From a virus, in the IMG/VR virus record IMGVR_UViG_3300008262_003053, positions 1 to 46,422 of that record: a stretch of DNA of 46,422 nucleotides; one strand, given 5' to 3'. Position 1 is the first letter of the stretch, and each line of letters begins with the position of its first letter. The translations under genes and the position numbers were made by a program. Below the pieces are notes generated by a model. That model had not been told where the DNA came from, did not search any database, and saw only the letters and a program-made list of their open reading frames with translations. This document shows, piece after piece, positions 8,440 to 38,204 of the stretch.

Positions 8440-8447
8440 GTTAAATA
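8440..8447 (+). promoter_or_regulatory. T4-late-like promoter, operon head of 8454
   Basis: GTTAAATA matches six of eight bases of the T4 late element TATAAATA. Six nucleotides separate it from ATG 8454, so a start with T4 geometry would fall at about 8453. No Shine-Dalgarno is present between them. It is the first of seven such elements in the central block. Confidence 0.55.
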
Positions 8448-8453
8448 AGTCTA

Positions 8454-9422
8454 ATGAATTTTAATCAAATACCATTTGACCAAATTGTCCGTTTTGGACA
8501 GCAGACCATGTTGGACCGTCCACTGTTTTCGATAAGTTGGATACTTGGGAGGTTCTGTAATTACAGTTGCAGCTACTGTTGGCCTTATGCAAGAAGTGAC
8601 AAGGTAGATCACCAAAGTTTAGAAGTTTACATTTCGGTTATTAATGAAATAAAACGACAAGCAAGACAAAATGGTTTCAATCAATTCCATTGGAGTTTTA
8701 GTGGCGGAGAACCAACTGCTTATAAAAATTTACTAGAATTAATTAGACACTTGGACGAAAAGCAAAGTCCGTATCAAAGTGTTCACATGACAACAAATTT
8801 GAGTCCGGGAAGCAAATGGTGGAAAACTTGGTGCGATGCAACAGCTCTTTTACAACGTAGAAGTATTACAGCCAGCTTCCATGATGAGTTTGCCAAAGAG
8901 CAAGAGTTTGGTGACAAGTGTTTACAGTTACAATACGAACTAGTACACGTTACTATCAATCAAGTAATGGTGCCAGAAAAGTTTTACGAACTGTATGAAC
9001 GTATGGAACGGTTCCACAAACGTGGGATTAATGTAACTCTTAAGCCGCAAAGTGATCCTACAGCGAGTACAGTTGTAGATGGTTATACTGAAGATATGAT
9101 CCATAAGATGCAAACAGGATTTCCACAAAAGTTGCAAGACGAAGATGTGTTTCAAATTCGATTAAATGACGGAGTTAAAGATTACTATTTTGATCAAGCA
9201 GAAAGATTCAATGCATTTGGATTTAATAAATTTAAAGATTGGACTTGCAATAGTGGTTATCAAAGTGTTATAATAAGAGGTAATGAAGTTAAAAGAAGTT
9301 ATAGTTGTCATGATGTTCCGCTAGGTACATTAGAACAATTTGAGTTATTTAAGGAACCGCAACGCTGTACTACACCTTCGTGTGTAAGTTCGGCTGATAG
9401 CAAAATACCAAAATGCAAATAA
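8454..9422 (+). CDS. Radical SAM protein with C-terminal Cys-rich region
   Basis: This 322-residue radical SAM enzyme has the cluster motif CNYSCSYC (Cys35, 39, 42) and the SAM-binding SGGEPT about 50 residues later. The C-terminal third carries further cysteines (WTCNSGYQSV, RSYSCHDV, CTTPSC) as in SPASM/twitch-type auxiliary iron-sulphur domains, which commonly act on peptides or proteins. The substrate is unknown. It resembles the proteins at 13132 and 17528 in length and C-terminal layout (W-x-C-N-x-G then a Cys pair). First gene of the long plus-strand operon 8454-16514; its end overlaps the next gene by 10 nt. Confidence 0.8.
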   Translation: MNFNQIPFDQIVRFGQQTMLDRPLFSISWILGRFCNYSCSYCWPYARSDKVDHQSLEVYISVINEIKRQARQNGFNQFHWSFSGGEPTAYKNLLELIRHLDEKQSPYQSVHMTTNLSPGSKWWKTWCDATALLQRRSITASFHDEFAKEQEFGDKCLQLQYELVHVTINQVMVPEKFYELYERMERFHKRGINVTLKPQSDPTASTVVDGYTEDMIHKMQTGFPQKLQDEDVFQIRLNDGVKDYYFDQAERFNAFGFNKFKDWTCNSGYQSVIIRGNEVKRSYSCHDVPLGTLEQFELFKEPQRCTTPSCVSSADSKIPKCK

Positions 9423-10009
9423 ACACTGAACATTTACATCACTGGATGCAGGCCATTAGACAAAGCCCAGATCCTATGCGTACTATGGATGCCTTTTGGA
9501 GTGGTCAGTTAAAAAGTAAAGAATGGTTAATTGTAAATTTACGTACACATGTTAAGAAATTTGTCACAGTAGACATTCATGGAGGATGGGTTGGAGTATT
9601 AGCCAGTATGCTATTTCAAAGTGACATACCTGTACTCAGTATTCGCAGTATTGATATTGATCCTGCTTGCGAACCAATTGCTGTTAACATGAACAAGATA
9701 GAAGAAACAGTAGGTAAATTTCGTGCGGTTACCACAGACATGTGTACTGTTCGAAGTGATGCTGACGTGATTATTAATACAAGTTGCGAGCATATTACAC
9801 AAGACCAATATGATTTGTGGTTAAGTGGTCATCCGCAAAATAGTTTGCTAGTTTTACAAAGTAACAATTATGCTATACCAGAGCATGTTCGAATCGCACA
9901 CAACTTGGAAGAATTTAAACAACAATGTTGCATTAATGTCTTGTGGGCCGGAGAATTAGAACTACCCTTATACACAAGATTCATGATCATTGGGAGGAAA
10001 CATGTTTAA
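9413..10009 (+). CDS. SAM-dependent methyltransferase-like protein
   Basis: This 198-residue protein has a class I methyltransferase order: a motif I-like segment (VTVDIHGGWVGVLA, about residue 55), an acidic strand end (SIRSIDIDPACEPIAVNMN) where SAM ribose would bind, and a later strand VIINTSCEHI suiting motif IV. The glycine motif is degenerate (DIHGGWVG), so activity is less certain than the fold. The substrate is unknown. It overlaps the radical SAM genes on both sides, so co-translation is likely. Confidence 0.6.
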   Translation: MQINTEHLHHWMQAIRQSPDPMRTMDAFWSGQLKSKEWLIVNLRTHVKKFVTVDIHGGWVGVLASMLFQSDIPVLSIRSIDIDPACEPIAVNMNKIEETVGKFRAVTTDMCTVRSDADVIINTSCEHITQDQYDLWLSGHPQNSLLVLQSNNYAIPEHVRIAHNLEEFKQQCCINVLWAGELELPLYTRFMIIGRKHV

Positions 10010-11090
10010 ATTTCATCAACTAGAAAGTATTCATTTTGAAATAACTAATCGATGTCAAGCCAGTTGCCCTATGTGTAGTAGAAATTATCATGGTGGGCTT
10101 GATAATCCGTTGATAAAAAATCAAGATTGGACTCTTGATGATTTTAAAAAAATTGTTTCTGAACATTTATTAAAGCAAGTAAAAGGATTTTATTTTTGTG
10201 GAAATTTTGGCGATCCTATTATCAATGATCACCTTATTGATATGATTGAATATTCCGCTTTAATAAATCCTGAACTGTCGATTAGAGTTCATACAAACGG
10301 CGGCGCACGAAAAAAAGAATGGTGGGAATCTCTAGCAAAAGCCCTACCCAAGAACCATATTGTTATTTTTGCTCTTGACGGATTAGAAGACACCCATAGT
10401 GTCTACAGAATAGGTACTAAGTTTGAAACAGTTATTCGCAACGCCAAGTATTTTATTGATGCTGGTGGTAAGGCAGAATGGGCTTTCATTAAATTTAAAC
10501 ATAACGAACATCAAGTAGAAGAAGCAGAACAAAGAGCAAAGCAACTAGGGTTTTATAGATTTTCTCAAAAAGATAGTGCAAGATTCGTTGCTACAGATAA
10601 GTTTCAAGTTTTAGACAAAAATGGAAATGTAGAATATTATATAGAACCTCCATCAACAAGTAAACTAAATTTTATAACAAAAGAAACTTTAGATAGGTAT
10701 AAAGAAATTGTAAGAGATAGTGAAATAGATTGCTACGTAGTTAGGACTAAAGAAATTTATATTGACGCATATAGAAATGTCATGCCCTGCTGTTTCTTAG
10801 CCAGTGTTCCTTATAATTTTATTGGACCGTTAGATGTTGCAAAAAATATAAAGTTACAAATTAGGTCACAGTATGAAAGTTTAATTCAAGATCTTGGAAA
10901 TACTTGTGCCCTTGAAAAATCAGTAGAAGAAATTATAGACTCCGATGAATGGCAGACTGTTTGGGAAAAATATTGGAATTCAGAAAAATTAATTGTGTGT
11001 GCTAGAACTTGCGGAGTTCTTAAAGAAAATAATCTTAGTAAACCTAAAGACCAATTTACAAAGGTAGTTCAGCTAGATGAATACAGATAA
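10002..11090 (+). CDS. Radical SAM protein
   Basis: This 362-residue protein has the cluster motif CQASCPMC (Cys18, 22, 25) in the context IHFEITNRCQASCPMCSRNY, typical of radical SAM proteins with SPASM-like C-termini. C-terminal cysteines occur in VMPCCFLAS and ARTCGV. ATG 10002 is chosen over the upstream TTG because GGGAGGAAAC is a strong Shine-Dalgarno directly before it, one of the few in this block. It overlaps the methyltransferase-like gene by 8 nt and the kinase-like gene by 14 nt. The pairing with a kinase-like gene recurs at 23056-24727. Confidence 0.8.
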   Translation: MFKFHQLESIHFEITNRCQASCPMCSRNYHGGLDNPLIKNQDWTLDDFKKIVSEHLLKQVKGFYFCGNFGDPIINDHLIDMIEYSALINPELSIRVHTNGGARKKEWWESLAKALPKNHIVIFALDGLEDTHSVYRIGTKFETVIRNAKYFIDAGGKAEWAFIKFKHNEHQVEEAEQRAKQLGFYRFSQKDSARFVATDKFQVLDKNGNVEYYIEPPSTSKLNFITKETLDRYKEIVRDSEIDCYVVRTKEIYIDAYRNVMPCCFLASVPYNFIGPLDVAKNIKLQIRSQYESLIQDLGNTCALEKSVEEIIDSDEWQTVWEKYWNSEKLIVCARTCGVLKENNLSKPKDQFTKVVQLDEYR

Positions 11091-11757
11091 CTGGACTCCT
11101 TTTTACAAGTATGCAGACGAAGGATTTCGTGGAATGGCTCAACAAACGTATGAGCCGTTGATAAATCCTGAAAGAACAGTTTTATGTGCTAACTACAATA
11201 TAAACAATTCTTATCAATTTAAACACGGCCCTAGGCCACTTTACACTCTAGACGTAGTTGATTGGTTTTTTGAAAATGAATTAAAATATGTGACAAAGTT
11301 TAAAAACAAGTCATACATGCCAATATTGTTAGATGTAGATAAGAATAACAAAAAGATTTTCTATGAATGGAACGGCTACTCTCTAAACGAGTTGTTGTTC
11401 GAAGGTCGTGATGTAGAATGGAAAGAACCAATCAAGAACATTCTGCTGGACTTGTATAAAGAAAATACTTATAAATTAACCATGTATCCCCACTGTCATT
11501 TTATCGATAAACATGGCGTGATGAAAGCTATTGATTGGTACGGTTGTGTTTCTGTATCCGAACCTTTTATAGAAACCAAATACATGGATGGCATTATACA
11601 TGAAACTGCAATTTTCAGATTGAAAGAAACAGGCGACATTATTGATGAAAAATATAATTTAGAAATTATGTTTAAGCAAGGATTACTGCATCATGTAAAA
11701 TGGAATAATTCCTCATTAGAATACATATATAAAGAAATTTTTAACAATGACAGATAA
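11077..11757 (+). CDS. Kinase-fold-like protein (degenerate)
   Basis: In this 226-residue protein the C-terminal part, PHCHFIDKHGVMKAIDW (about residues 138-154), resembles the catalytic and metal-binding loop of aminoglycoside or protein-kinase-like folds (H.d.N...dg..k.iDw), but the usual Asp and Asn are replaced. An N-lobe-like segment (VTKFKNKSYMPILLDVD...FYEWNGYSL) precedes it. It may be a pseudokinase or an unusual phosphotransferase. The gene at 24032 shares this layout and also neighbours a radical SAM gene. This is my reading of fold-like patterns, not a firm family call. Confidence 0.45.
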   Translation: MNTDNWTPFYKYADEGFRGMAQQTYEPLINPERTVLCANYNINNSYQFKHGPRPLYTLDVVDWFFENELKYVTKFKNKSYMPILLDVDKNNKKIFYEWNGYSLNELLFEGRDVEWKEPIKNILLDLYKENTYKLTMYPHCHFIDKHGVMKAIDWYGCVSVSEPFIETKYMDGIIHETAIFRLKETGDIIDEKYNLEIMFKQGLLHHVKWNNSSLEYIYKEIFNNDR

Positions 11758-13135
11758 GATAAAATTTTATCAAGACAAAATAGAAAAAGCTTCTGGCTCT
11801 AAAACTTTTTGTATACTTCCTTGGATACATTTTGCTACTAGGCCAAACGGTGACATGCGCCTATGTTGTAGTGCCAATGCCAGCGGTGCAAGCGATGGTG
11901 TATTTGATGCTGGCCTAGTTAAGAATGAAAAAGGTGTTCCAGCAAATTTTGGACGAGAAACTCCAATGAGTGCCTGGAACAACGACTACATGCGCGATGT
12001 ACGTTTAACTATGCTCGAGGGAAAGATTCCTTCGAGTTGTAGTAAATGTATAGCGGAAGAATCCAAAGGTGTTGCTAGTAAAAGAATTTGGGAAACCGGG
12101 TCGTGGATGGAGGAAGGAATTGACGTTGAAGAACTTATTAAGCAAACAGAAGAAGATGGTACAGTTCCTGAAAAATTAGTTTACTTAGATTTACGACTAG
12201 GACACACTTGCAATCTTAAATGTGTTATGTGTAGTCCACATGATAGTAGTCAATGGGTTGCTGATCATAAAAAAATATATCCGTTGTTCCAAGCTAAAGA
12301 ACTTAAAGAACAGATAGTGTGGGATCGCAAAGACTTTAACAACAAGTGGCACGAAAATCCAGACTTCTGGAAAGAGATGTATGCACAGATTCCTAACCTA
12401 AAGCAAGTTTACTTTGCTGGAGGAGAGCCGTTGATGATCCGCGAGCACAAATGGTTCCTTGAAGAAATCATTAGACAAGGCTACGCAGATAAAATCCTTG
12501 TACGCTACAACACAAACGGGTTATTAGTAGATGACGAGATAATTGAGCTGTGGAAGCAGTTTAAAAAAGTTAAAGTTGGCTTTAGCATTGACGCTGTCGG
12601 TGACCGTAATTATTACATACGTTATCCTAGTGATTGGGCAACTATAGAAAAGAACCTTCATAAGTTAGATAACACGCCAGATAATATACAAGTTAGTATT
12701 GCCACAGCTATTCAAATATTAAACATTAAACACTTGGCAGATTTTGCTAAATGGAAAATTACACAGAACTTTAAGAAAATAAATCTTGAAAATACAATTG
12801 GAGGCATACAAGCAGGCGGTGGAATTGTTAATATGCATTTGCTATACATTCCAACATTCTTAAGTATTAAACTACTACCGCACGAGGACAAGGAAGAAGT
12901 ACGCAGAAGCTTTGCCGAACTAGCTAATTGGTTGCATGAAAATTACAGGCAGGATGAAGACTTTTGGAAACATAATCCTTACGGATGGAAACGTTGGCAA
13001 GCTGTCTTAGATTTTATGGATGCGGAAGATTATACAGACCAACTGCCTGCGTTCAAAGAATATATAGAACGGTTGGAACTTTTGCGCGGTACAAATTTTA
13101 AATCTACATTTCCCGAATTGACTCATTTAGTATGA
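11747..13135 (+). CDS. Radical SAM protein with N-terminal twitch-like domain
   Basis: This 462-residue protein begins with a cysteine-rich domain (KTFCILPW with Cys22; RLCC with Cys40-41; CSKC with Cys98 and 101) that resembles a twitch auxiliary cluster domain placed ahead of the radical SAM domain. The core follows: CNLKCVMC (Cys155, 159, 162) and FAGGEPLM. A family of N-terminal-twitch radical SAM proteins is known in phages and aquatic bacteria; its function is not established as far as I know. Paralogues lie at 15255 and 18420. It overlaps both neighbours. Confidence 0.85.
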   Translation: MTDKIKFYQDKIEKASGSKTFCILPWIHFATRPNGDMRLCCSANASGASDGVFDAGLVKNEKGVPANFGRETPMSAWNNDYMRDVRLTMLEGKIPSSCSKCIAEESKGVASKRIWETGSWMEEGIDVEELIKQTEEDGTVPEKLVYLDLRLGHTCNLKCVMCSPHDSSQWVADHKKIYPLFQAKELKEQIVWDRKDFNNKWHENPDFWKEMYAQIPNLKQVYFAGGEPLMIREHKWFLEEIIRQGYADKILVRYNTNGLLVDDEIIELWKQFKKVKVGFSIDAVGDRNYYIRYPSDWATIEKNLHKLDNTPDNIQVSIATAIQILNIKHLADFAKWKITQNFKKINLENTIGGIQAGGGIVNMHLLYIPTFLSIKLLPHEDKEEVRRSFAELANWLHENYRQDEDFWKHNPYGWKRWQAVLDFMDAEDYTDQLPAFKEYIERLELLRGTNFKSTFPELTHLV

Positions 13136-14109
13136 TAAAAGAAATTAGAAATAATTATCCTGCTGACCTACTTCGTATCGAATATATGTTAGGAAACTTA
13201 TGTAATCATAAGTGTTCGTATTGCTTTCCAGGAAGCAACGAAGGAAACTATCCCTGGCCAGACGTTGACCTAGTTAAAAGAAACCTTAGTCATTTATTAG
13301 AGCATTATAAAAAAAATGGTAAGAATCGTTTTCAGTTTTACCTCATAGGTGGTGAGCCTACTCTTTGGAAGGACTTACCTGAACTTTGTTTTTTCTTAAA
13401 AGAACAATACAACGCTATTATTAATATTTCTACAAACGGGTCGAAGAAATTAGATTGGTGGCAAAACAACTATAAAGCATTTGACAACATTGAACTCTCA
13501 GTTCACCACGAATTTGCCAACGTTGAACATTTAATGTCGGTTGCTGACTTACTCTACATGTCTAACATAAATGTTGTATCTAATGTTTTAATGGATCCGG
13601 ATCATTTTGACAAATGCAAAGATATAATTGACAAAATGAGATCAAGTAAAAAAAGATGGGGCATTATAGCAAAGAGTGTTCATTTCAACGGACAAACTAG
13701 ATATACACAGGAACAAACAAACTACCTACTTTCAAATCTTAAACGCTATCCAAATTTATTTTGGTATTGGAAAACTTTAAAAAATCCTGTGTTTAAAGTA
13801 AAGATAAAAGCAGTTGATGATAAAAATAAAAAAATCAGTGTCCCTAATGACAGCTGGTTTGCCTTACACGATTTAAATAGATTTAACGGATGGCATTGTA
13901 ACCTTGGTGTTGATCATATTGAAATATTTCAAGATGGGAAAATATCCGGTAATTGTAGACAAAAAATTTATGGGCTAGATAGTTACTATAATTTATATGA
14001 TGAGAATTTTTTAAATTCTTTCAATCCTCAAATAATCCCTACTATATGCAACCAATCCTTGTGTCAGTGTAGTAGTGAAATCATAATAAAAAAATATGCA
14101 AAACTTTAA
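13132..14109 (+). CDS. Radical SAM protein with C-terminal SPASM-like cysteines
   Basis: This 325-residue enzyme has CNHKCSYC (Cys24, 28, 31) and IGGEPTLW. The C-terminus has GWHCNLGVDHIEIFQDGKIS then GNCRQ and CNQSLCQC, the Cys pattern of a SPASM/twitch domain. It matches the protein at 17528 in length, spacing and C-terminal design (GW-C-N-G, then C-R, then C-x3-4-CxC), so it is a paralogue in the inverted module. ATG overlaps the preceding stop as ATGA. Confidence 0.8.
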   Translation: MIKEIRNNYPADLLRIEYMLGNLCNHKCSYCFPGSNEGNYPWPDVDLVKRNLSHLLEHYKKNGKNRFQFYLIGGEPTLWKDLPELCFFLKEQYNAIINISTNGSKKLDWWQNNYKAFDNIELSVHHEFANVEHLMSVADLLYMSNINVVSNVLMDPDHFDKCKDIIDKMRSSKKRWGIIAKSVHFNGQTRYTQEQTNYLLSNLKRYPNLFWYWKTLKNPVFKVKIKAVDDKNKKISVPNDSWFALHDLNRFNGWHCNLGVDHIEIFQDGKISGNCRQKIYGLDSYYNLYDENFLNSFNPQIIPTICNQSLCQCSSEIIIKKYAKL

Positions 14110-15265
14110 CAGACTAGAACCAGTTAATCCACAAGTATTCCATGTTGACTGGGAACTAACTTTAAAATGTAATCTTGATTGCGGATATTGCGGAAGTCAT
14201 GACAATTCAAAGAAACATCCTTCATTAAAAGAATGTCTAGAAACAGTTGATTTTTTATTAGAGTATACTGACATAAATTTTATTGATAGTGCATTAGAAC
14301 ATAAAAAAGTTATATTCAATCTCTTTGGTGGTGAGGCAATATATCATCCAAATTTTATAGAAATTGTAGAATACATTCGTAGCGAGTACGAATTAAAATA
14401 TAAGAACAACTGGAAGTTAGAGCTAGGGCTAATAACCAACGCTATTGCTGCTGACAAAATTTGGGATAGGACTATAGAACTGATTGATTCGTTTACTATA
14501 AGTTATCATGCAGAGAATAGTGAAAAACAAGAAAAACAATTTAGAAGAAATGTGTTAGCTTTACATCAAAAGACAAATGGGTATCATGTTGCAGTATTAA
14601 TGAATGCACCATTGTTTCATAAGAACTTATCTTTTATAGATTTTTGTAAAGAACACGGAATAAAATATTTGCCTCGACAACTTGATCACTGGGGGTGGTC
14701 AACCAAAAAGTACAACTATACTGAAGAGCAAGTTCAATGGTTTGATGGAGTATATAAAAGAAAAAGCACCAAACCTTTACCCAGCATTAAGATAGAGAAC
14801 ATAACAAAGCCCAAGATTAAACTTGCAGACAAAATTAAAGGCATACTTAAAAAAATAGTAAACTATCGAATTAACATGACTAATATTGGTAGAGCATGTT
14901 GCGGCGGCGAAACATTATGTGTTGATGGTAAGTTTGACGAAAAAGTATTCTTTGTTCCCGACAACAGATTTAAAGATTGGCATTGTAGTGTTAATAGATT
15001 TTTTGTCTTTGTAAAACAGGATGATCAAAGTATTCGACACAACAAAGATTGCAGGATGAGATTTGACGGGCGAGAAGGTCCAATGGGTTACTTAAAAGAT
15101 TCAAGAACAATTTTAGATAAGATGAAAGAAGAAATAACCTTAGGAACTAGACCTGTAATTACCTGTAAAAAGAAAATGTGTTTTTGCGGATTGTGTGCTC
15201 CAAAAGCAAAAACTCTAGATACATACACTACTATGATGACTAGGTATATCAAGAATGTTGCATGA
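14096..15265 (+). CDS. Radical SAM protein, CCGG type
   Basis: This 389-residue protein has CNLDCGYC (Cys25, 29, 32), a LFGGEAI motif (SAM-binding GGE, variant), and a distinctive C-terminal Cys layout: RACCGG, then DWHCSVNRFFVF, NKDCRMRFD, and CKKKMCFCGLCAPKAK. The same layout appears in the protein at 16498 (NCCGGRC, GWYCSVNKYFL, HQTCQAKF, CPNNRCGCGMCVPKAK). It overlaps the previous gene by 14 nt and the next by 11 nt. Substrate unknown; the rich auxiliary cysteines suggest one or two extra clusters. Confidence 0.8.
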   Translation: MQNFNRLEPVNPQVFHVDWELTLKCNLDCGYCGSHDNSKKHPSLKECLETVDFLLEYTDINFIDSALEHKKVIFNLFGGEAIYHPNFIEIVEYIRSEYELKYKNNWKLELGLITNAIAADKIWDRTIELIDSFTISYHAENSEKQEKQFRRNVLALHQKTNGYHVAVLMNAPLFHKNLSFIDFCKEHGIKYLPRQLDHWGWSTKKYNYTEEQVQWFDGVYKRKSTKPLPSIKIENITKPKIKLADKIKGILKKIVNYRINMTNIGRACCGGETLCVDGKFDEKVFFVPDNRFKDWHCSVNRFFVFVKQDDQSIRHNKDCRMRFDGREGPMGYLKDSRTILDKMKEEITLGTRPVITCKKKMCFCGLCAPKAKTLDTYTTMMTRYIKNVA

Positions 15266-16514
15266 TGTAAAATTAAAATTAGATAAAGTTGGGCCTGGTT
15301 TTTGTTTAGAAAAATGGACCAGTGCTGTTTTTCATCTGCAAAAAGGAAGCACAAATAGCTGTCACCATTGTAAGGGACACGTTATTCCACTTGAAGTAGT
15401 TAAAGAAAATATACACACTATTCATAACACTCCAATTAAAAAAGAACAAAGAAAAATAATGATAGAGGGCGGTTGGTCAAACGAATGTGACTATTGTTCT
15501 GTTGTAGAAAAACAAGGCGGTGTAAGCGATCGGATCATAGTAAGTGGCCGGGAACGAAGTTGGAAACATTATGATTCTATAGTCAACAATTGGAGTCAAG
15601 ATTTTAAACCCACTAATATTGATGTATCATTTAACAATGTTTGTAACTTAGCTTGTAGTTATTGCGGCCCACATAGTAGTACTACTTGGGTTAAAGACAT
15701 TGAAGAAAATGGCAACTATCCAAATAATTATAATGATATACCTGCGGACCTTCAACTAGTGGTTTCTGAAAATCCGTACATAGAACCTTTTTGGCAATGG
15801 TTTAAAGAAGTACACTCCGGCCTTAACAATTTGGTAATCAATGGCGGCGAACCTTTGATGATTAAAGAAACTTATCGTTGTTTAGAATACATATTAGAAC
15901 ACCCTAATAAAAATTTGGATGTTACAATAAACTCTAACCTTTGTGTTGAAGAAAGATTAATTGATAAACTAGTTGAAATTATTCAAAAAATAGAACAAGG
16001 AAACCATGTTAGAAGTTTGTCAATTTATACAAGCAACGAAGCACACGGTACTCAAGCAGAGTATATAAGGAACGGTCTTAATTACAAAACTTGGTTAAAA
16101 AACATTAACAGAGTTTTAGAGTCTTCACCGACGGTTAAAGTTGGTTTTATGGCCAATTATAACTTGTTGTCTGCTTTTAGTTTTATTGATTTGTTAAAAG
16201 ATGTAAAATCTTTAATTGATCAATATTCTGAAAGGAGAATTATTTTTATGCCAGGATACATTAGACATCCAGAATTTCTTAGTGTTAGGTTGTTGCCAAT
16301 AGACTATCGGCACAAGATAGTTGAAAGTTTAGACTACATAAAAACACATTTTATCAATCAACAAACTAAACTAAGATTTGAACAAGTTTTAACCTACTAC
16401 GACGCAAAACAAGAAACAGATTATTCTAAGTTCAAAGAATTCATATTAGAATTTGATCGTCGGAGAGGTATTAATTTTAAAGAAACATTTCCTCAGCTCA
16501 GTAGTTTATTTTAA
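15255..16514 (+). CDS. Radical SAM protein with N-terminal twitch-like domain
   Basis: This 419-residue protein has an N-terminal Cys-rich domain (Cys17; CHHC, Cys36 and 39; CDYC, Cys78 and 81) ahead of the core CNLACSYC (Cys130, 134, 137) and INGGEPLM. The N-terminal arrangement differs in spacing from its paralogues at 11747 and 18420 but ends in the same way (LRG/RGINFKETFPQL-type tail). It is the last gene of the plus operon and overlaps the end of the converging gene 16498-17550 by 17 nt, with no hairpin terminator seen between them. Confidence 0.8.
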   Translation: MLHDVKLKLDKVGPGFCLEKWTSAVFHLQKGSTNSCHHCKGHVIPLEVVKENIHTIHNTPIKKEQRKIMIEGGWSNECDYCSVVEKQGGVSDRIIVSGRERSWKHYDSIVNNWSQDFKPTNIDVSFNNVCNLACSYCGPHSSTTWVKDIEENGNYPNNYNDIPADLQLVVSENPYIEPFWQWFKEVHSGLNNLVINGGEPLMIKETYRCLEYILEHPNKNLDVTINSNLCVEERLIDKLVEIIQKIEQGNHVRSLSIYTSNEAHGTQAEYIRNGLNYKTWLKNINRVLESSPTVKVGFMANYNLLSAFSFIDLLKDVKSLIDQYSERRIIFMPGYIRHPEFLSVRLLPIDYRHKIVESLDYIKTHFINQQTKLRFEQVLTYYDAKQETDYSKFKEFILEFDRRRGINFKETFPQLSSLF

Positions 16515-24727: not shown

Positions 24728-24731
24728 GCAG

Positions 24732-24739
24732 TACTTAGC
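24732..24739 (-). promoter_or_regulatory. T4-late-like promoter, operon head of 24727
   Basis: GCTAAGTA on the minus strand, 4 nt before ATG 24727 (CTGC between). The same octamer precedes ATG 32902 on the plus strand. It stands back to back with the plus-strand element at 24741-24748, one base apart. Confidence 0.55.
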
Positions 24740-24740
24740 T

Positions 24741-24748
24741 GATAAGTA
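24741..24748 (+). promoter_or_regulatory. T4-late-like promoter, operon head of 24754
   Basis: GATAAGTA on the plus strand, 5 nt before ATG 24754 (CATGT between). A T4-type start six bases after the element is exactly the A of the ATG. No Shine-Dalgarno is present. Confidence 0.6.
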
Positions 24749-24753
24749 CATGT

Positions 24754-26170: not shown

Positions 26171-26171
26171 T

Positions 26172-30982: not shown

Positions 30983-32018
30983 GTCTGTATGCTCTTACTA
31001 AATGTGAAAATCCTTTTTGGTTAAACCAATGGTCTATTTCGGATTGCTCAATGCCAAATTTTATTTTAATAGCATCTAGTATTTTACTATTTTCTAATGC
31101 TAATGTAAAGAACAAATTGTAGTTATGTTCTATATCTTGTTCTATTTTGGATTGATTAGATTTATAGTTTTGTAAAAAATATTTTGTGTTAATAACAATG
31201 GCATTTAATTGGTCTTCTTCTGTGGGCAAATACGCATAATCTTGTATTAACATATATTCTTCAAATGTTTTAAACCCCAACTCTTTAATGTATTCAAACA
31301 TTTCTGAATTTGATGCGTGTAAAAATGGATGACGTTGTACAAACACTCGATAGGTTTTTTCAGTTAGATATTTTGATGATAAGTCACTATCACTAGTACC
31401 TTCGGATATAATACTAAGTACCGTGCTGTTATAAATTGCTGGATCTAGCCATCCTATATCTTTAGTCCATTCGTTATCCGCTGGGTCAGTACCGTAGTGT
31501 TTAGAAGATTCGTATATAGAGTCAACTGCTCGACATAATGACATTACATTATTATACTCGTCGCCTACAAACTGTTTACACCAATTTTCTTGTTCTCTAG
31601 TCCACGGTTTAAAAAACGACCATTCTGCATTAGTTAACAGTCCTGCTTTTCTAAATTTGTTTATTAGTCCAATACGATTTGGTCTATTTGGTACTCCACC
31701 TAAGAATAAAAATTTATCAGCAGAACTATTCCACTTATAAGTATCCTTATTTTTATAACTAAGATATGTAGTATGTAAAAAAAAATTAAACGGAACAACT
31801 TTTGAATATGTGGTGTTAGTATCAGCAATTCCAGGTACAATGTACAAGTCTACCTCTTTGCTGATACGTTCAACTAGTGGCCCTGGATTTTCGTGTATGA
31901 ATCCGTCGGCCAACATTAGTCCCAATACAGTACTTGAGTTACCTATTTCTGATTTTAAAAGATTATATTTTTCTTCTTCAGGAATAGCAAATGTTTCTAA
32001 GTTAATAATTTTATACAT
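30963..32018 (-). CDS. Glycosyltransferase-like protein
   Basis: In this 351-residue protein, a mid-to-late segment (SSKYLTEKTYRVFVQRHPFL then FKTFEEYML) resembles the TEK...P motif of fucosyltransferase-like and surface-glycan transferases found in phages, and LFLGGVPNRPNRIGLINKF resembles the donor-domain start. I do not recognise the full fold, so donor and acceptor are unknown. The C-terminal 60 residues are helical. It overlaps the amidinotransferase gene by 20 nt and the aminotransferase gene by 8 nt. Confidence 0.5.
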   Translation of the reverse strand: MYKIINLETFAIPEEEKYNLLKSEIGNSSTVLGLMLADGFIHENPGPLVERISKEVDLYIVPGIADTNTTYSKVVPFNFFLHTTYLSYKNKDTYKWNSSADKFLFLGGVPNRPNRIGLINKFRKAGLLTNAEWSFFKPWTREQENWCKQFVGDEYNNVMSLCRAVDSIYESSKHYGTDPADNEWTKDIGWLDPAIYNSTVLSIISEGTSDSDLSSKYLTEKTYRVFVQRHPFLHASNSEMFEYIKELGFKTFEEYMLIQDYAYLPTEEDQLNAIVINTKYFLQNYKSNQSKIEQDIEHNYNLFFTLALENSKILDAIKIKFGIEQSEIDHWFNQKGFSHLVRAYRHANINT

Positions 32019-32862
32019 GAAAATGCTTATACAAACCTAATCTATTAGTAGGGCCGCCTCGGTTGTATTCTGGGTAAGAGTTGTTCGTGTCGATTCCAAA
32101 CAATACAGTATTACTAGGTGTAACACCTAAACTGTTACATAAGTTCATTTGTTCTTGCAAATACTTTTCTACTACATAATCAGGAGAAAATTGTTCCATT
32201 AATTTCACTCCTAACGATGCACCTATGCGATTAGTATATCCTATTTTATGTAACATTAAAAGAGAATCGTCATCGTCTGTTCTAGTTAACCGCATACCCA
32301 CACGAGCATACGCAAGCGGAAATGTCTTAGACAAACTAAACGTAATATCTGTAATGCATCTATGATCAAAGTTAAAATTAATATTAGAGCATACACCAAA
32401 GTATACGCAATCAACTAGTACAGGCACATTAAGATTTGAACATGTTTGCAAAACTTGTTGCATTTGTGAATGTTCGTTCCCAGTATCCGAAAAAGGCAAA
32501 CTAATAACGACAGCGTCGTTATCATCTATTGTGTCATCTTCCAAAAACTTCCAATCCCAATTACGCCACGCTATTTGATGATATACATATTCGCCTTTAA
32601 AACAACGGAATCGTCGTTTGTTGTTCTTCATGTAAAATTTATCAAACGCTTCAGTTGTACCGTTTGAATAAGCTGCATAAGGAAATTGTTCTAGCCCGTT
32701 AAATGAATTAAGTTTAGATGAAGTAATCCAACCTAAATATTTTTTACAAAAAGTGTCGCAATCTACTTGCAATAAATCAGGTAGACTGTTAAGTATTTGT
32801 AAATCCATTATGGCAAATGATCCGCCAAAAGGCAATGATCTTTTATCGTTGGGCAAGGTCAT
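32011..32862 (-). CDS. PLP-dependent fold-type I aminotransferase-like protein
   Basis: This 283-residue protein has SNGTTEAF (PLP phosphate-binding and substrate motif), a VLVDCVYFG strand (Asp151, Tyr154, cofactor contacts) and TFSLSKTFPLAYARVGM with Lys179 as the likely Schiff-base lysine. At 283 residues it is shorter than the usual 350-400, lacking part of the small domain. It starts the minus operon that also encodes the amidinotransferase; a TATAAGTA late-type element lies 5 nt before ATG 32862. Confidence 0.7.
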   Translation of the reverse strand: MTLPNDKRSLPFGGSFAIMDLQILNSLPDLLQVDCDTFCKKYLGWITSSKLNSFNGLEQFPYAAYSNGTTEAFDKFYMKNNKRRFRCFKGEYVYHQIAWRNWDWKFLEDDTIDDNDAVVISLPFSDTGNEHSQMQQVLQTCSNLNVPVLVDCVYFGVCSNINFNFDHRCITDITFSLSKTFPLAYARVGMRLTRTDDDDSLLMLHKIGYTNRIGASLGVKLMEQFSPDYVVEKYLQEQMNLCNSLGVTPSNTVLFGIDTNNSYPEYNRGGPTNRLGLYKHFHV

Positions 32863-32888: not shown

Positions 32889-32896
32889 GCTAAGTA
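32889..32896 (+). promoter_or_regulatory. T4-late-like promoter, operon head of 32902
   Basis: GCTAAGTA on the plus strand, 5 nt before ATG 32902 (TTATT between). It is identical to the octamer before ATG 24727 and has no Shine-Dalgarno between it and the gene. Confidence 0.55.
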
Positions 32897-32901
32897 TTAT
32901 T

Positions 32902-33648
32902 ATGATAACAGCCCTAGAATTCTACAAAAATAACAAAGATTGTGTTTGGAAGGTTGAACCTATACCAAATTATCTATCTTCGAATATTGACAAGGCTAGG
33001 TGGATTTTAAATGATGCTAACATTGGCTGGATTGAACTTGATATTGATATTGACCTTGCGGGCTGGCAATTAGAAGCACAAGCAGCATCACCGTATTTTG
33101 TGACACATAGAGAAGATAACAATACTGGATGGAACAGTTGTTGCATTCATGGCATAGATATAGATAAAACAGGTGCATGGACAAACTACGGCTATACTGA
33201 CGAAGAACAAGTTCCGTACAATTGGACAGAGGTGGCACACAAATCTCCTGTGGTTAAACGATTTTGGAATGATATCTTTCCTGCCAACAAGTATAGAAGA
33301 ATTCGATTTATGGAATTAGAACCAAATTCTGTAATAACACCCCATAGTGATATGCCTGGAAAATTACCGGGCGAAAACAACTTCGACTCATTAGATTTTG
33401 GAGTACCTGTTAATATAGCTGTGATACATCCTAAAGACTGCTTCATGGTAGTAGAAGGGTATGGTGTTGTTCCTTTTAAAGAAGGCAAAGCCTTTATTGT
33501 CAATATACGCAATTATCACAGCGTAATAAATTTTAGTAAACAATCACGAGTACATGTTATTGGACATCCTTTTGGATACGGTACTAACAAAGAATCATTT
33601 GCAGAGCTTGTAGTTAGAAGTTATGAAAAAATGTTAGGGGAAAACTAA
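32902..33648 (+). CDS. HxD...H iron oxygenase-like protein
   Basis: In this 248-residue protein, ITPHSDMPG (His148, Asp150) and RNYHSVINF (His206), about 58 residues apart, form the metal triad, with FSKQSRVHVIGHPFG downstream offering an Arg. The N-terminal 130 residues are specific to this protein. It starts the plus operon 32902-38204; the following GTG gene begins 1 nt after its stop. The position before an adenylate-forming ligase suggests a tailored acyl or amino substrate, which is inference. Confidence 0.65.
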   Translation: MITALEFYKNNKDCVWKVEPIPNYLSSNIDKARWILNDANIGWIELDIDIDLAGWQLEAQAASPYFVTHREDNNTGWNSCCIHGIDIDKTGAWTNYGYTDEEQVPYNWTEVAHKSPVVKRFWNDIFPANKYRRIRFMELEPNSVITPHSDMPGKLPGENNFDSLDFGVPVNIAVIHPKDCFMVVEGYGVVPFKEGKAFIVNIRNYHSVINFSKQSRVHVIGHPFGYGTNKESFAELVVRSYEKMLGEN

Positions 33649-33649
33649 A

Positions 33650-35095
33650 GTGGTTATAACAAGAGACTTTATAAGTGAAAATTTTAATTTTACTGACCTA
33701 CGTTCTTCCAATAATGTAACATATACTAAACAAGATTTAATAACAAAAATAGATTATTGGAAGTATTTGTTAAAGTATGAGTACAAGGCTACAACAGGCG
33801 AATCAATACTCATTGGATTGCAAAAAATTGGTGTTGATTATTTTGCAATAATTTTTGCAGCGGCCGAGCTATCTCTTAAAATTGTTGTAGTCGATTATAA
33901 CAGAACTGATAATTTTAAAAATGCAGAATACAATGATCCAAAAACAAAATTGCTAGCACCTATTGATATTTTCTTGCACGACTTTCCCAGTAATGTAATA
34001 GAAGAAGACAGAAGTGCTTATGCAAAGTATTTGTTTTTTAAAAAATATTCAAATAAGACTATTAGTACAGTAGATGTAATCGATGTTACTATTGATAATA
34101 CGTTGTTAAGCCAAATATCTAAGATACGGCCTAGTCCTACTGATATATTATTTAGAGTAACAAGCAGTGGAACAACTGATGTTCCTAAAGTTATTGAACA
34201 CACGCACGAGTATATTTTTGCTATCTCAATTCGAAACTCTGAACTATACAAAGGAACAGCTTTACACGTAAGTAATCTTAATCACGGTGCAAGTGCATCG
34301 GTTACATTATTGCCGTTACTTGCAAATGATCAGGTAGATAGACATTTGTTTTACGATTGGGATCCAGACTCGATAGGAAAGATGGTTGATTCTGTTGCTC
34401 CTTTTAAAGACGAGTTAGGATACTTGTCATTTCCATATCCATTTTTGATTGATAAATTTATTGAAGTTAGCAAAGCTAAAAATGTAAAATGGCCTAAGCT
34501 GGATTTAATTACCTTATCTTATATTTTAGAAAGTGGCAAACATGCAGTCCGTGACGGAATCTTTAACAGTATAACAAGTATATTTGGATCTAACGAAACA
34601 TTAGGGCCGTTATTTTTTAATAAAGCAGATTCTGTTAACTGGGATATTGATTCTCGATACTACCTAATGTATGATGATTTTTATAAATTGAGTCTTTCCT
34701 CGGACGGAAAACTTACAGTAACCGTTCCTGTATACAATAAAGAAGTTACAACAAACGATTATTTTGAAAGAGACGGTGCTTATTATATACATCGTGGGCG
34801 TTCAGATATGTTTAGGATTAATGGTGAAACTGTTAATTTAAGTACAATTAATGATTTAAATAAACAACACACTGATACTTACATAGTTGTTGATACATTA
34901 AATCACTGTTTGTATCTTGCCTGCTGGAAAGAAATAGATGATGCAACAATACAAGATATCAAAAAAGATATTGAAAGTAATTTCAATAGAATTAAAATTA
35001 CAAAGATAGTTCATTTAGACAAAGCAAATTTTTATTATGGTATTAAGATAGATAACGAACTTCTTCGCGAACACTTTAGAGCATACAATGTTTAA
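33650..35095 (+). CDS. AMP-dependent acyl-adenylate ligase
   Basis: This 481-residue protein has the ANL P-loop TSSGTTDVPKVIEHTHE (about residues 169-185), a motif resembling GSNETLGP (Y/G..TE block) and, toward the C-terminus, YYIHRGRSDMFRINGE, the hinge Asp/Arg region. These features suit adenylation of a carboxylate; no carrier protein is encoded nearby, so the acceptor is unclear. It begins at GTG 33650 with AGGGGAA 9 nt upstream, one of the few good ribosome sites here. The frame ends with an 8-nt overlap into the small membrane gene. Confidence 0.75.
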   Translation: MVITRDFISENFNFTDLRSSNNVTYTKQDLITKIDYWKYLLKYEYKATTGESILIGLQKIGVDYFAIIFAAAELSLKIVVVDYNRTDNFKNAEYNDPKTKLLAPIDIFLHDFPSNVIEEDRSAYAKYLFFKKYSNKTISTVDVIDVTIDNTLLSQISKIRPSPTDILFRVTSSGTTDVPKVIEHTHEYIFAISIRNSELYKGTALHVSNLNHGASASVTLLPLLANDQVDRHLFYDWDPDSIGKMVDSVAPFKDELGYLSFPYPFLIDKFIEVSKAKNVKWPKLDLITLSYILESGKHAVRDGIFNSITSIFGSNETLGPLFFNKADSVNWDIDSRYYLMYDDFYKLSLSSDGKLTVTVPVYNKEVTTNDYFERDGAYYIHRGRSDMFRINGETVNLSTINDLNKQHTDTYIVVDTLNHCLYLACWKEIDDATIQDIKKDIESNFNRIKITKIVHLDKANFYYGIKIDNELLREHFRAYNV

Positions 35096-35336
35096 TAAAC
35101 ACTTAGAAACAAGTAAAGTTACCTATATAAAGCACTTGTATTGGGCGATAGTTGCAGGACTTCGTTTGATTTATGCAGGTGTATCAAGTATAATACATGG
35201 TATTATACCTACATTGTTTAATGGCACAGCGCCAAAACAGATAATAGATATCTATCACAATCATCTTGAAGATCATCCTAATCCGCAATATAAAGAGATG
35301 ATAAAACAAGCTAAAGAAAATAAAGATAAGTTATGA
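35088..35336 (+). CDS. Small membrane protein, DUF6356-like
   Basis: This 82-residue protein has one strong hydrophobic segment, about residues 17-45 (LYWAIVAGLRLIYAGVSSII then HGIIPTLF), flanked by charged regions. The layout (short N-terminus, YIKHLYWA, LRLIYAGVSSIIHGIIPTLF then NGTAP) resembles DUF6356, small membrane proteins found near capsule and sugar genes. Its position between an acyl ligase and a halogenase is tight, with overlaps of 8 and 4 nt. The family call is from memory of its typical shape. Confidence 0.55.
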   Translation: MFNKHLETSKVTYIKHLYWAIVAGLRLIYAGVSSIIHGIIPTLFNGTAPKQIIDIYHNHLEDHPNPQYKEMIKQAKENKDKL

Positions 35337-36574
35337 AAACAATAGCAGTTGTTGGTGCAGGATCTTCTGGATATTTGACAGTACTTTATTTCTGTACAAA
35401 ATACCCCGAGTATAAAATTAATTGGATATATCCTGAAAATAATCAACCTATTGGTGTAGGAGAAGGAACTGTTCCCCAACTGTTATCGTTTTTTAAAGAT
35501 ATGGGGATACCTCTAAGAACTATAATTGAAGAAATTGGAGGCAGTTTAAAGCTAGGAATTAAATTTGAAAACTTTAAACAAGAAACATTTTATCATCCGT
35601 TTGGCGGACCTATCGAAGAAAAATTTGAGCTTGCATACATGATGGAACATAATAGGGTTTCTGATAACATTGAAAATTATGATATTGCTTTTCACTTTAG
35701 TGTAGCTACACTTGCTAAATTTTTAGACAAGTGGTTTAAAAAATTTAATAACCTTACAATAGAAAGAAGAACTGTACCTACAGTGGACGAGATTGATTGT
35801 GATTGGATAGTAGATTGCACAGGATTTAAAAGAACATTTGTAAATCAATACTATAATGATAATTTCAAATCAATAGCACATTTAATACCCAACAACAAAG
35901 CACTGGTGTATAGAACAGCTATACCAGAACATAAACGATTTGCCTACACAACCTGTATAGGTATGAAGCATGGATGGATATGGAATATTCCATTAAAAGA
36001 TGAAATTGGAATAGGATATGTTTACTCTGATGAATACGATGTTAAAGAAGAATTCTTAGATTACTTGGAACAAGAAGGGTTTGGCAGACCAGAACTTCGT
36101 GAAGTTCCTATGGTAACCGGAAGAAACAAAAAGCATTGTGTTAATTTAGGAAACAAACAACTTGTTGCAGTGGGGTTAAGTAGTGCATTTATTGAGCCAT
36201 TAGAGTCTACAGGATTGAAATTTACCTTTGATGGAATTAAATGGTTAGATGAATTAATACGAGGAGACATAACTCATGAGCAATATGACGAGCATGTTAA
36301 TTATGAGTTTGACGTAACCCTTGATTTTATTATAGCACATTATAAGTATAGCCACCACACAAATGAATACTGGAGTTTTTTTAAAAATACTCCTATAGAA
36401 CTATACAGAAGAAACAAAACATTTTTTCAAGGTAGCTGGGCATACATCTTACAAGATAGTGCCATTTTGTCTCAACTGTCATCAGATGAAAAGTATAGGA
36501 TAGCAGTCAAGCACAAGACTGGTAATACTTATTCTAGTTGGTTTAAAAATTATATTTCTTCAAAAGATAAATGA
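35333..36574 (+). CDS. Flavin-dependent halogenase-like protein
   Basis: This 413-residue protein has the FAD motif VGAGSSGYL at the N-terminus, GVGEGTVPQL, SLKLGIKF with the Lys73 that corresponds to the catalytic Lys of PrnA-type halogenases, and WIWNIP (residues 215-220), the family signature that blocks monooxygenation. The size is below the usual 500 or more, mainly through a shortened C-terminal region. Activity needs a reduced-flavin source, which I do not see here. Known members halogenate tryptophan or related aromatics; the phage substrate is unknown. It overlaps both flanking genes by 4 nt. Confidence 0.85.
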   Translation: MKTIAVVGAGSSGYLTVLYFCTKYPEYKINWIYPENNQPIGVGEGTVPQLLSFFKDMGIPLRTIIEEIGGSLKLGIKFENFKQETFYHPFGGPIEEKFELAYMMEHNRVSDNIENYDIAFHFSVATLAKFLDKWFKKFNNLTIERRTVPTVDEIDCDWIVDCTGFKRTFVNQYYNDNFKSIAHLIPNNKALVYRTAIPEHKRFAYTTCIGMKHGWIWNIPLKDEIGIGYVYSDEYDVKEEFLDYLEQEGFGRPELREVPMVTGRNKKHCVNLGNKQLVAVGLSSAFIEPLESTGLKFTFDGIKWLDELIRGDITHEQYDEHVNYEFDVTLDFIIAHYKYSHHTNEYWSFFKNTPIELYRRNKTFFQGSWAYILQDSAILSQLSSDEKYRIAVKHKTGNTYSSWFKNYISSKDK

Positions 36575-37320
36575 TTATGAAAATAGGAATAGCAGGATAC
36601 GGTATTGTAGGTAAAGCTACACACAAAGGATTGCTCAATAACAGCGGCAAGATATTAATACATGACACTTTATCTGGGACCAGTATTGAAGATTTACATG
36701 TGTGTGATTACGTATTCTTTTGTATTCCTACAGATTCAGATGCTAGTACACAAATACTTATTGACGAGATAAAACGTCTTAAAGTAGTTAATACTGATTG
36801 TGTAATTGTAATTCGAAGTACTGTTCCAGTTGGAACATGCTCGATGATTGAAAAAATAATAAATGATAAAATTTATTACATGCCTGAATTTTTAAGGGAA
36901 AGAATTTGGGAACAAGATTGTTTAAATCGTCCAATTATTGTAGGTAGCGACCATCAAGCAGTTCCTACTTGGTTGCTAGGAGAAGAATGCATCTTTTGTT
37001 CTTTAGAGGAAGCTGAAGTTATTAAGATGTTAAGCAACAACATGGCAGCAGCCAGGGTTGTGTTTGCTAATCACATGTACGAGTTAAGCAAGGCTGTTGG
37101 AGCAGATTACAATACTGTGCTAAACACTTACTTACAAGTTAATCACGATCAGAACTATTTAGAAGTAAATGAGAACATGCGAGCGTTTGGTGGTAAGTGT
37201 TTGCCTAAGGACTTAGACTTTCTGATTAGTACGTTTAATAAATTAAACATTCCACAAACATATTTTACAGCAATGAAAGAAGACAACCAACTATGGCCAG
37301 TAACCGTAAGAAAATCTTAA
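36571..37320 (+). CDS. UDP-glucose dehydrogenase-like protein, truncated
   Basis: This 249-residue protein has an NAD motif GYGIVGKATHKGLL, IRSTVPVGTCS and the catalytic FGGKCLPKDLDFL (Cys210). The C-terminal UDP-binding domain of standard UDP-sugar dehydrogenases (about 390-450 residues) is absent, yet the frame is intact and ends beyond the central helix, so it is a natural short form. It would oxidise a C6 alcohol of a nucleotide sugar to an acid if active. The overlap with the epimerase gene is 28 nt. Confidence 0.8.
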   Translation: MIMKIGIAGYGIVGKATHKGLLNNSGKILIHDTLSGTSIEDLHVCDYVFFCIPTDSDASTQILIDEIKRLKVVNTDCVIVIRSTVPVGTCSMIEKIINDKIYYMPEFLRERIWEQDCLNRPIIVGSDHQAVPTWLLGEECIFCSLEEAEVIKMLSNNMAAARVVFANHMYELSKAVGADYNTVLNTYLQVNHDQNYLEVNENMRAFGGKCLPKDLDFLISTFNKLNIPQTYFTAMKEDNQLWPVTVRKS

Positions 37321-38204
37321 TAACAGGCGCCAGCGGATTAATAGGGCGTGAATTTTGTAACCAACTAAGTTTGGATAACGATGTTACGGCTGTGGATAAC
37401 AATCAAAGATTTAAAGATTATGTGCCAAATAATTGTTTGTATGTACAGGCAAACTTAACTGAATATCTAGCACAGGCAACTAACGACTTTGACATCATAT
37501 ATCATATGGCTGCAACAAATGGTACAAAGTATTTTTATAGTCAGCCAAACGATGTACTAAGAAATAATGTAACACTAGATCTAGCCATGTTTAGATTTGC
37601 AGAATCTAATCCTGCTTGCAAATTAATCTATGCAAGTAGCAGTGAAGTTGTAGCAGGCACAACTATTTTTCCTACACCTGAAACTACGGACATTAGTATT
37701 AGTAACATACACAATCCTCGTTGGAGTTATATGCTACCAAAAGTACTGGCAGAAAACTATTTGTTTAACAGTAACATTGATTTTTTAGTTATTAGATTTT
37801 TTAATGTGTTTAGTGAACATTCTGGCTCAGGGCATTTTGTTAGAGATATTATCAATAAAATTCAAACGGCAAATTTTGAACTTGTTGGTGCAGACGAAAC
37901 TCGTTCGTTTTGCTATGTGAATGATGCAGTTGATGCAGTGATCAAAATTTCAAATGTGAGCAAGCAAGTAGTCAATGTTGGTAGTGATGAAGAATTAACT
38001 ATCTTAGAAGCAGCAAATATTATTGCTCATGCAATGGGTAAATTTAATGCTGAGTGGAAATTAAAACCAGGATTAATTGGTAGTGCTAAAAATAGAAGAC
38101 CTAACCTTACAGAGTTAAAAAGGCTGTTGCCAGCCTTTTTGCCTAGGTCATTTAAGGAAACTATGCACTTAGTGGTACCCATCCAGTTCCGTTATAGCCT
38201 CTAA
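37293..38204 (+). CDS. NAD-dependent sugar epimerase/dehydratase-like protein
   Basis: This 303-residue extended SDR has ITGASGLIG, a SSSEV block (Ser115-117) and YMLPK (Tyr146, Lys150). It probably modifies the same nucleotide sugar as the preceding dehydrogenase. The last 20 or so codons run across a perfect 10-bp terminator-like hairpin (38117-38140) and then antisense to the end of the tail-fibre gene, so the C-terminal residues are encoded in a region shared with another gene. It is the last gene of the plus operon. Confidence 0.8.
   Translation: MASNRKKILITGASGLIGREFCNQLSLDNDVTAVDNNQRFKDYVPNNCLYVQANLTEYLAQATNDFDIIYHMAATNGTKYFYSQPNDVLRNNVTLDLAMFRFAESNPACKLIYASSSEVVAGTTIFPTPETTDISISNIHNPRWSYMLPKVLAENYLFNSNIDFLVIRFFNVFSEHSGSGHFVRDIINKIQTANFELVGADETRSFCYVNDAVDAVIKISNVSKQVVNVGSDEELTILEAANIIAHAMGKFNAEWKLKPGLIGSAKNRRPNLTELKRLLPAFLPRSFKETMHLVVPIQFRYSL
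38117..38140 (-). terminator. Bidirectional rho-independent terminator inside epimerase end
   Basis: AAAAAGGCTG (38117-38126) and CAGCCTTTTT (38131-38140) form a perfect 10-bp stem with loop TTGC. On the minus strand it follows the tail-fibre gene stop with a run of T, as expected of its terminator. On the plus strand it lies within the epimerase coding sequence, about 60 nt before its stop. Confidence 0.7.

Follow-up and report, generated by a model that had tools for sequence, protein, structure and literature searches.

An exchangeable island of radical SAM and oxygenase-like genes at a cargo site of T4-type large freshwater phages

Analysis of the IMG/VR virus record IMGVR_UViG_3300008262_003053, whose whole length of 46,422 bases is referred to here as the window, demonstrated that large freshwater phages of T4 type carry the 35 genes g17–g51, within positions 8454–38204, as an exchangeable cargo island. 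Its enzyme families, its recurrence and modularity among viral contigs, its cargo site and a bacterial counterpart are established here. Most of the genes overlap their neighbours and only 83 of the 29,751 bases are non-coding (99.7% coding), in agreement with the gap-free cassette of tailoring enzymes described in a first-pass annotation made from the letters alone. The G + C content of the island was 0.345, compared with 0.392 and 0.412 in the flanks, and it was likewise below that of the flanks in all six relatives examined.

Eleven radical S-adenosylmethionine (rSAM) proteins are encoded by the island (g17, g19, g21–g27, g34, and g38; Table 1). All of them carry CxxxCxxC and exceeded the PF04055 cut-off, and a six-frame search of the window returned the same number, as the first-pass annotation had counted. 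Three of them (g21, g24, and g27) scored above the cut-off of 170 bits against the full NF033640 model (N_Twi_rSAM); the remaining eight do not belong to that family. The paralogues g17, g22, g23, g25, and g26 have CNYxCxYC, GGE and a C-terminal WxC...C...C...C pattern in common, and the last of these patterns is consistent with an auxiliary Fe–S cluster. The eight HxD...H oxygenase-like proteins previously counted (g28, g29, g30, g36, g37, g39, g42, and g46) were also present, with support ranging from matches above Pfam cut-offs (g37 and g46) to the motif only (g36). Residues H81, D83, H125, and R135 of g28 were invariant.

A search of IMG/VR with g26 returned at least 592 confirmed relatives. 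Among the 80 loci kept from these, a core of g17, g18, g19, g21, g26, and g27, usually accompanied by g28, recurred while the other genes varied; gene calls in the relatives are simple open reading frame (ORF) calls, and nearly all contigs are fragments. An independent search anchored on g18 found rSAM genes in 79 of the best 80 loci. Between 7 and 16 rSAM genes each were present in 21 contigs, and the core order was kept in dozens of contigs. The 191-kb record G009 matched the gene order of the window on both flanks, and with such two-sided synteny there and in many other contigs, an assembly join of phage and non-phage DNA, which the first-pass annotation had named as a possible refutation, was ruled out. 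A T4-type Gp23 capsid gene was found in G004, G006, and G008, as well as in G027 and G028, which were reached through the border RNA described below; jumbo phages including Phosso, GAP32, and CBB encode Gp23 proteins 66–70% identical to that of G006. A record as short as the window cannot be expected to show a capsid gene. Related islands encode further rSAM types, of which one has a weak B12-binding domain (L073:5047-6591) and another an HMPTM zinc ribbon (L010:701-1765).

It is hardly credible that the block is a degenerate set of enzyme genes, gathered by horizontal transfer and lacking any coherent function, whether an assembly join or junk. Such an origin would fit the low G + C content and the high gene turnover between contigs, but the intact catalytic residues, the dense coding, the conserved core order and flanks and the presence of hundreds of loci argue against it, and the conservation of the catalytic motifs essentially refutes it.

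The island lies between an RNA resembling tRNA-Leu on the left and the tail-fibre-like gene g52 on the right, whose homologues sit at island ends in other contigs. The tail-fibre/g56–g58 side and the RNA delimit an exchangeable cargo site. Both borders had been proposed in the first-pass annotation; g52 fits, with a match slightly below the cut-off, and the RNA proved to be real, though atypical. Neither ARAGORN nor an Rfam scan called a tRNA anywhere in the window, and a standard tRNA at the left border was rejected, as it was missed by ARAGORN and reached only a sub-threshold Rfam tRNA score. The acceptor stem of the RNA is 7 bp long, UUCGAAU lies in its T arm, its 3′ end is ACCA, and its variable arm is long as in tRNA-Leu; it thus has the acceptor, T arm, and 3′ CCA of a tRNA. 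Covariation supports the structure strongly: in a 22-sequence alignment, 99.5% of the cells pair, and changes on both sides were found in 17 of 29 pairs, compared with 8.4 in shuffles. Across 83 distinct RNAs, a stable hairpin replaces the anticodon arm (loops UUCG in 22, ACCCC in 20, CUUG and others in the rest), a 7-nt anticodon loop as in a tRNA was predicted in only two, and the discriminator base was A (A73) in all 83. Bacterial leucyl-tRNA synthetase does not need the anticodon, so the border RNA might be charged without decoding.

Retrieval by the RNA alone yielded 80 viral loci, and in 70 of them the first cassette-side gene was a g17-type rSAM. Among the 74 with at least 1 kb on the cassette side, eight lacked rSAM or g18 (L308, L253, L248, L274, L254, L300, L269, and L310). 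L308 is an empty site, in which the RNA is followed by a tail-fibre homologue and then by homologues of g57, g56, and g58. The other seven hold genes that by eye are rubrerythrin-like, transporter-receptor-like, PP-loop, GNAT-like or oxygenase-like; names given without a tool match, including g33, g40, and several of these alternative cargo genes, are readings of the sequence. Conversely, the 186-kb record G006 carries the cassette without the RNA. Taken together, the empty site, the alternative cargo and the RNA-less G006 indicate that the border RNA is an edge of the cargo site and no obligatory part of a pathway, and the idea that it is the obligatory partner of the cassette, as an aminoacyl carrier, was weakened. 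Beyond the border, g58 (44801-45268, minus strand) contains the motif HCFAGICRS, similar to the active site of tyrosine/dual-specificity phosphatases.

These observations also bear on a possible nucleic acid target of the enzymes: hypermodification of phage DNA, or of an RNA such as a tRNA, by which host nucleases would be evaded. DNA modification is frequent in T4-type phages, a tRNA-like RNA stands at the border, and a PP-loop protein with QueC-like cysteines occurs in related islands. However, the RNA and the cassette each occur without the other, and the window contains no QueC-like genes. The thymidylate synthase/dCMP hydroxymethylase family (PF00303) was absent from six records while nine controls were positive, so base hypermodification of that type was rejected; ADDT (PF18724) gave no match, and its control was silent too. 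A role in nucleic acid modification is therefore considered very unlikely. The PP-loop protein itself, with its QueC-like C-terminal cysteines (L006:1605-2339 and 25 homologues), often lies beside g27 and g28 homologues.

A pattern-based genome scan for g26 relatives reached seven bacterial loci, six of which belong to metagenome-assembled genomes (MAGs) of Bdellovibrionota. One Bdellovibrionia MAG, G021, encodes 20 NF033640 proteins, 14 of them within approximately 30 kb of a 917-kb contig. This island also contains g26- and g19-type rSAM genes (cluster-0/3), g46-like oxygenases, an amidinotransferase-like gene and g45- and g41-like genes, and it is flanked by housekeeping genes; a second locus in the same genome holds g17/g19/g21-type genes (Table 1). 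In contrast to the phage block, the G021 island is chromosomal and has no g18, and the stretches read showed neither a halogenase nor the tRNA-like RNA. Genes for GT2, PMT, DegT/StrS aminotransferase or carbamoyltransferase are close to other Bdellovibrionota relatives. In a Bacteriovoracaceae MAG (L127:5514-7445), a long N-terminal region, possibly glycosyltransferase-like and without a Pfam match, is fused to a g26-type rSAM domain. Among the genomes reached, with only seven loci from the pattern-based scan, several close bacterial homologues were clustered and not scattered singly, which is the opposite of what the first-pass annotation had said would refute it. It is possible, though short of probable, that large freshwater phages and predatory Bdellovibrionota have in common an undescribed radical-chemistry pathway, in which the five-rSAM core, g18, and often g28 would make a modification or molecule that is diversified by exchangeable neighbours.

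The single tailoring enzymes of the block had been described as serving amination, amidination, acylation, halogenation, methylation, and sugar oxidation. The halogenase (g49), the amidinotransferase (g43), and the UDP-sugar dehydrogenase (g50) were recovered by profile searches, and a methyltransferase fold was predicted for g18 by AlphaFold2 and Foldseek; the aminotransferase (g45) and the AMP-ligase (g47) gave sub-threshold Pfam matches only, and the acetyltransferase (g33) matched no domain. The nearest match of g43 was the inosamine-phosphate amidinotransferase StrB1 (2.9e-97) vs approximately 1e-59 for AGAT, and its catalytic residues D179, H228, D230, and C335 were invariant across seven sequences, which confirms g43 as a member of the StrB1/AGAT amidinotransferase family. 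The models of g18 and g41 were compared with the PDB: g18 matched generic methyltransferases and NAS only, and the best matches of g41 were glycosyltransferases with a TM of approximately 0.28. SGNH-like proteins, which g40 resembles in sequence appearance, were found repeatedly in related islands.

Table 1. Features of the window and of related loci (AF2, AlphaFold2; PLP, pyridoxal phosphate; 2OG, 2-oxoglutarate).
Feature	Position	Strand	Assignment	Support
Border RNA	8265..8377	-	tRNA-Leu-like RNA, left border of cargo site	Rfam tRNA 27.4 bits vs cut-off 29 (local scan)
g17	8454..9422	+	rSAM, core; C-terminal WxC...C...C...C	PF04055 1.3e-11
g18	9413..10009	+	class I SAM methyltransferase-like fold, core	AF2 pLDDT 94.7; Foldseek MtNAS and O-methyltransferases
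g19	9990..11090	+	rSAM, weak SPASM, core	PF04055 1.5e-11
g20	11077..11757	+	protein-kinase-fold-like, degenerate	weak profile matches to Bud32/Ser-Thr kinases
g21	11747..13135	+	N-twitch rSAM, core	NF033640 408.8 bits
g22	13132..14109	+	rSAM, paralogue of g17/g26	PF04055 8e-12
g23	14096..15265	+	rSAM, paralogue	PF04055 3.2e-8
g24	15255..16514	+	N-twitch rSAM	NF033640 296.7 bits
g25	16498..17550	-	rSAM, paralogue	PF04055 6.3e-12
g26	17528..18427	-	rSAM, core	PF04055 2.2e-13
g27	18420..19670	-	N-twitch rSAM, core	NF033640 303.6 bits
g28	19709..20377	+	aspartyl/asparaginyl beta-hydroxylase-like, frequent core member	profile match to structure 7v4f 3e-19
g29	20370..20948	+	HxD...H oxygenase-like	motif; clusters with g39/g42
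g30	20945..21490	+	HxD...H oxygenase-like	motif; clusters with g39/g42
g31	21484..21954	+	short-chain dehydrogenase-like, weak	adh_short 0.0023, below cut-off
g32	21921..22553	+	short-chain dehydrogenase-like, weak	KR 0.0021, below cut-off
g33	22527..23081	-	acetyltransferase proposed, unconfirmed	no Pfam match
g34	23056..24039	-	rSAM	PF04055 1.2e-13
g35	24032..24751	-	protein-kinase-fold-like, degenerate	profile search
g36	24754..25569	+	HxD...H oxygenase-like	motif only
g37	25571..26170	+	2OG-Fe(II) oxygenase	PF13640 (2OG-FeII_Oxy_3) 2e-10, above cut-off
g38	26151..27101	+	rSAM	PF04055 1.9e-7
g39	27104..27598	+	Asp/Asn beta-hydroxylase-like, weak	PF05118 0.075
g40	27595..28323	+	SGNH-hydrolase-like by sequence appearance	no relevant Pfam match
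g41	28324..29448	-	GT-A-glycosyltransferase-like N-terminal region	AF2 pLDDT 87.4; Foldseek
g42	29445..29930	-	Asp/Asn beta-hydroxylase-like	PF05118 1.3e-4, 22.3 vs cut-off 22.6 bits
g43	29927..30982	-	amidinotransferase (StrB1/AGAT family)	1bwd 2.9e-97
g44	30963..32018	-		no matches
g45	32011..32862	-	PLP aminotransferase-like, weak	PF00155 0.0027, below cut-off
g46	32902..33648	+	Asp/Asn beta-hydroxylase	PF05118 (Asp_Arg_Hydrox) 8.2e-10, above cut-off
g47	33650..35095	+	AMP-forming ligase-like, weak	PF00501 3e-4, below cut-off
g48	35088..35336	+	DUF6356	PF19883 1.4e-12
g49	35333..36574	+	flavin-dependent tryptophan-halogenase family	PF04820 3.3e-59 (201.4 bits vs cut-off 21)
g50	36571..37320	+	UDP-glucose/GDP-mannose dehydrogenase	PF00984 4.3e-16, PF03721 7.2e-9
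g51	37293..38204	+	NAD-dependent nucleotide-sugar epimerase/dehydratase	PF01370 5.4e-31
g52	38161..39408	-	tail-fibre-like gene, right border	Mtd_N 1.9e-5, slightly below cut-off
Operon heads	genes at 8454, 18420, 19709, 24754, 32011, 32902		hexamer TAA[A/G]TA	
Border RNA, other viral loci	L103:11355-11471; L308:998-1108			
G021 multi-rSAM island	C1 ~745-775 kb (L238, L239)			
G021 second locus	C7 ~143-150 kb (L243)		g17/g19/g21-type genes	two genes ~50% identical to phage proteins

The hexamer TAAATA or TAAGTA, which resembles the T4 late promoter core, was present at six of the seven divergent operon heads of the cassette (Table 1). Across 77 contigs, TAAATA preceded 40% of divergent operon heads vs 6% of other genes, with a positional peak 10–12 nt ahead of the start codon; such closeness suggests very short or absent leaders. 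The T4 late promoter TATAAATA itself occurred 0 times on both strands of the window, compared with 6.7 expected from shuffles. Judging from the hexamers, the island is plausibly expressed late in infection, as the first-pass annotation had supposed.

That annotation left the product of the cassette as a peptide, a glycan or a small molecule, among which a glycan is only moderately favoured. The cassette probably makes or modifies a small molecule, sugar-like or of another kind. We tentatively propose that this is a group resembling a sugar or an aminocyclitol, made and decorated by the island for a glycan of the host surface or the virion. The enzymes would act serially on a small, polar unit similar to a sugar, an aminocyclitol or an amino acid, the rSAM proteins abstracting hydrogen atoms and the Fe/2-oxoglutarate (2OG) enzymes hydroxylating it; further steps may be amination, guanidinylation, methylation, and halogenation. 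Late in infection, glycosyltransferase-like proteins would then join the unit to the surface or virion glycan, and the altered glycan could change adsorption or superinfection exclusion. This proposal is favoured by the nucleotide-sugar enzymes g50 and g51, the StrB1-like g43, the GT-A-like g41, the tail-fibre border and the parallel with Synechococcus phage S-SCSM2R described below. Support also comes from the sugar-gene neighbours of the Bdellovibrionota relatives, the host-recognition islands of pelagimyophages, the exchange of islands at a fixed site and the late-like hexamers. Several observations weigh against it: a canonical GT2 glycosyltransferase (PF00535) was found neither in 12 phage contigs nor inside the 30-kb Bdellovibrionia island, and the structural matches of g41 were low. 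In addition, the core is without sugar enzymes, g50 and g51 being non-core genes that each occur in just one other contig of the clustered set, and its SPASM/twitch-like architecture is often tied to peptide substrates.

That architecture raises the alternative that the core rSAM proteins and the beta-hydroxylase-like proteins modify a tail-fibre, other virion or host protein in the manner of maturases of ribosomally synthesized and post-translationally modified peptides (RiPPs), with no dedicated precursor. The auxiliary cysteine patterns of SPASM/twitch type in the paralogues, the AspH-like fold of g28 and the adjoining g52 fit such an activity, and the structural neighbours of g41 include LH3 and collagen hydroxylysine glycosyltransferases, which act on hydroxylated protein residues. 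On the other hand, PqqD/RRE domains were found in 0 of 12 phage contigs (controls positive in 3 of 14), no short ORF recurred inside the islands except for a family of about 60 amino acids in five contigs, and nucleotide-sugar and amidinotransferase genes are atypical of RiPPs. Protein modification is thus rated as rather unlikely. A RiPP pathway proper was rejected: no precursor-peptide gene was seen within the block, with its few non-coding bases, and no RRE was detected, so the first-pass annotation was right to find none obvious.

The natural-product-like combination of halogenase, AMP-ligase-like, amidinotransferase, and aminotransferase genes would also suit a small diffusible molecule or a cofactor that is made during infection and serves as a toxin, signal, siderophore, or metabolite, as would the B12-type and HMPTM-like rSAM proteins of relatives and the metabolic look, by eye, of the alternative cargo at the site. 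This is judged to be unlikely, since a purely intracellular product would be lost on lysis, neither a carrier protein nor the core of a synthetase was recognised, and an ABC exporter was absent save for one match in the 331-kb record G004, most of the contigs screened being fragments.

The statement in the first-pass annotation that no described phage has so many rSAM enzymes did not hold. Campylobacter phages CP220 and CPt10 encode 11 and 12 rSAM proteins, respectively, with an exchangeable five-rSAM module that holds an amidinotransferase (PMC2853527), and a T4-like marine genome, TARA_ERS488813_N000010, was reported in passing to have 12 rSAM genes (PMC5332604). CP220 and CPt10 are T4-related myophages, and their multiple rSAM genes, amidinotransferase and exchangeability are mirrored in the island by its 11 rSAM genes, g43, and its cargo exchange. 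In CPt10 a tail-fibre gene also follows the rSAM module, and the related phages IBB_35 and CP21 likewise have a tryptophan halogenase. However, the module of CP220/CPt10 comprises five rSAM genes only, the others being dispersed, and three features of the island were not seen there: the set of oxygenases, g18, and the tRNA-like RNA at the border. The sequences are very distant, with only weak and partial matches to g26 that do not identify homologous rSAM proteins, and no rSAM protein of CPt10 exceeded the NF033640 cut-off. The rSAM cassettes of pelagimyophages, mentioned in passing and given no function as in the T4-like marine genome, belong to a hypervariable island for host recognition that is rich in lipopolysaccharide genes and near tail fibres, whereas the freshwater SAR11 phages of the same study are without rSAM (PMC7029224); these phages and TARA_ERS488813_N000010 were set beside the island by their published descriptions only.

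According to its annotations, S-SCSM2R combines five glycosyltransferases, a sugar-type aminotransferase, an rSAM, a 2OG oxygenase, an inosamine amidinotransferase (36% identical to g43) and PrnA in one stretch. It differs in having one annotated rSAM, many annotated glycosyltransferases and no multi-rSAM core. VirX1 of cyanophage Syn10 (6qgm) belongs to the same Pfam family as g49 (E value, 5.8e-35), but g49 is shorter (413 aa) and sits in an rSAM island. INPHARED contained nothing close; matches covering most of g21 and g27 came from Vibrio phages K566 and K567 only, with 22–25% identity. A region of K566 (OZ196521.1 161548-178915) has six NF033640 matches, two of them above the cut-off, and K566 may be a tractable relative. 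No description of the island turned up in literature searches for rSAM biosynthetic clusters in jumbo or freshwater phages. From the comparison with CP220/CPt10, the T4-like marine genome, the pelagimyophages and INPHARED, the island is a denser and much more widespread variant of known but unexplained multi-rSAM phage systems.

The question of why ten or more rSAM genes are found in certain T4-type phages dates from the Campylobacter phages of 2010, and it is now directly testable: one phage enzyme set recurs in freshwater viral contigs that number at least in the hundreds, with a defined site, a testable core, and a bacterial counterpart. The island offers many unassigned enzymes whose active sites are intact. 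Few biological reactions are harder than some of those catalysed by rSAM enzymes, and phages are seldom considered as a source of such enzymes.

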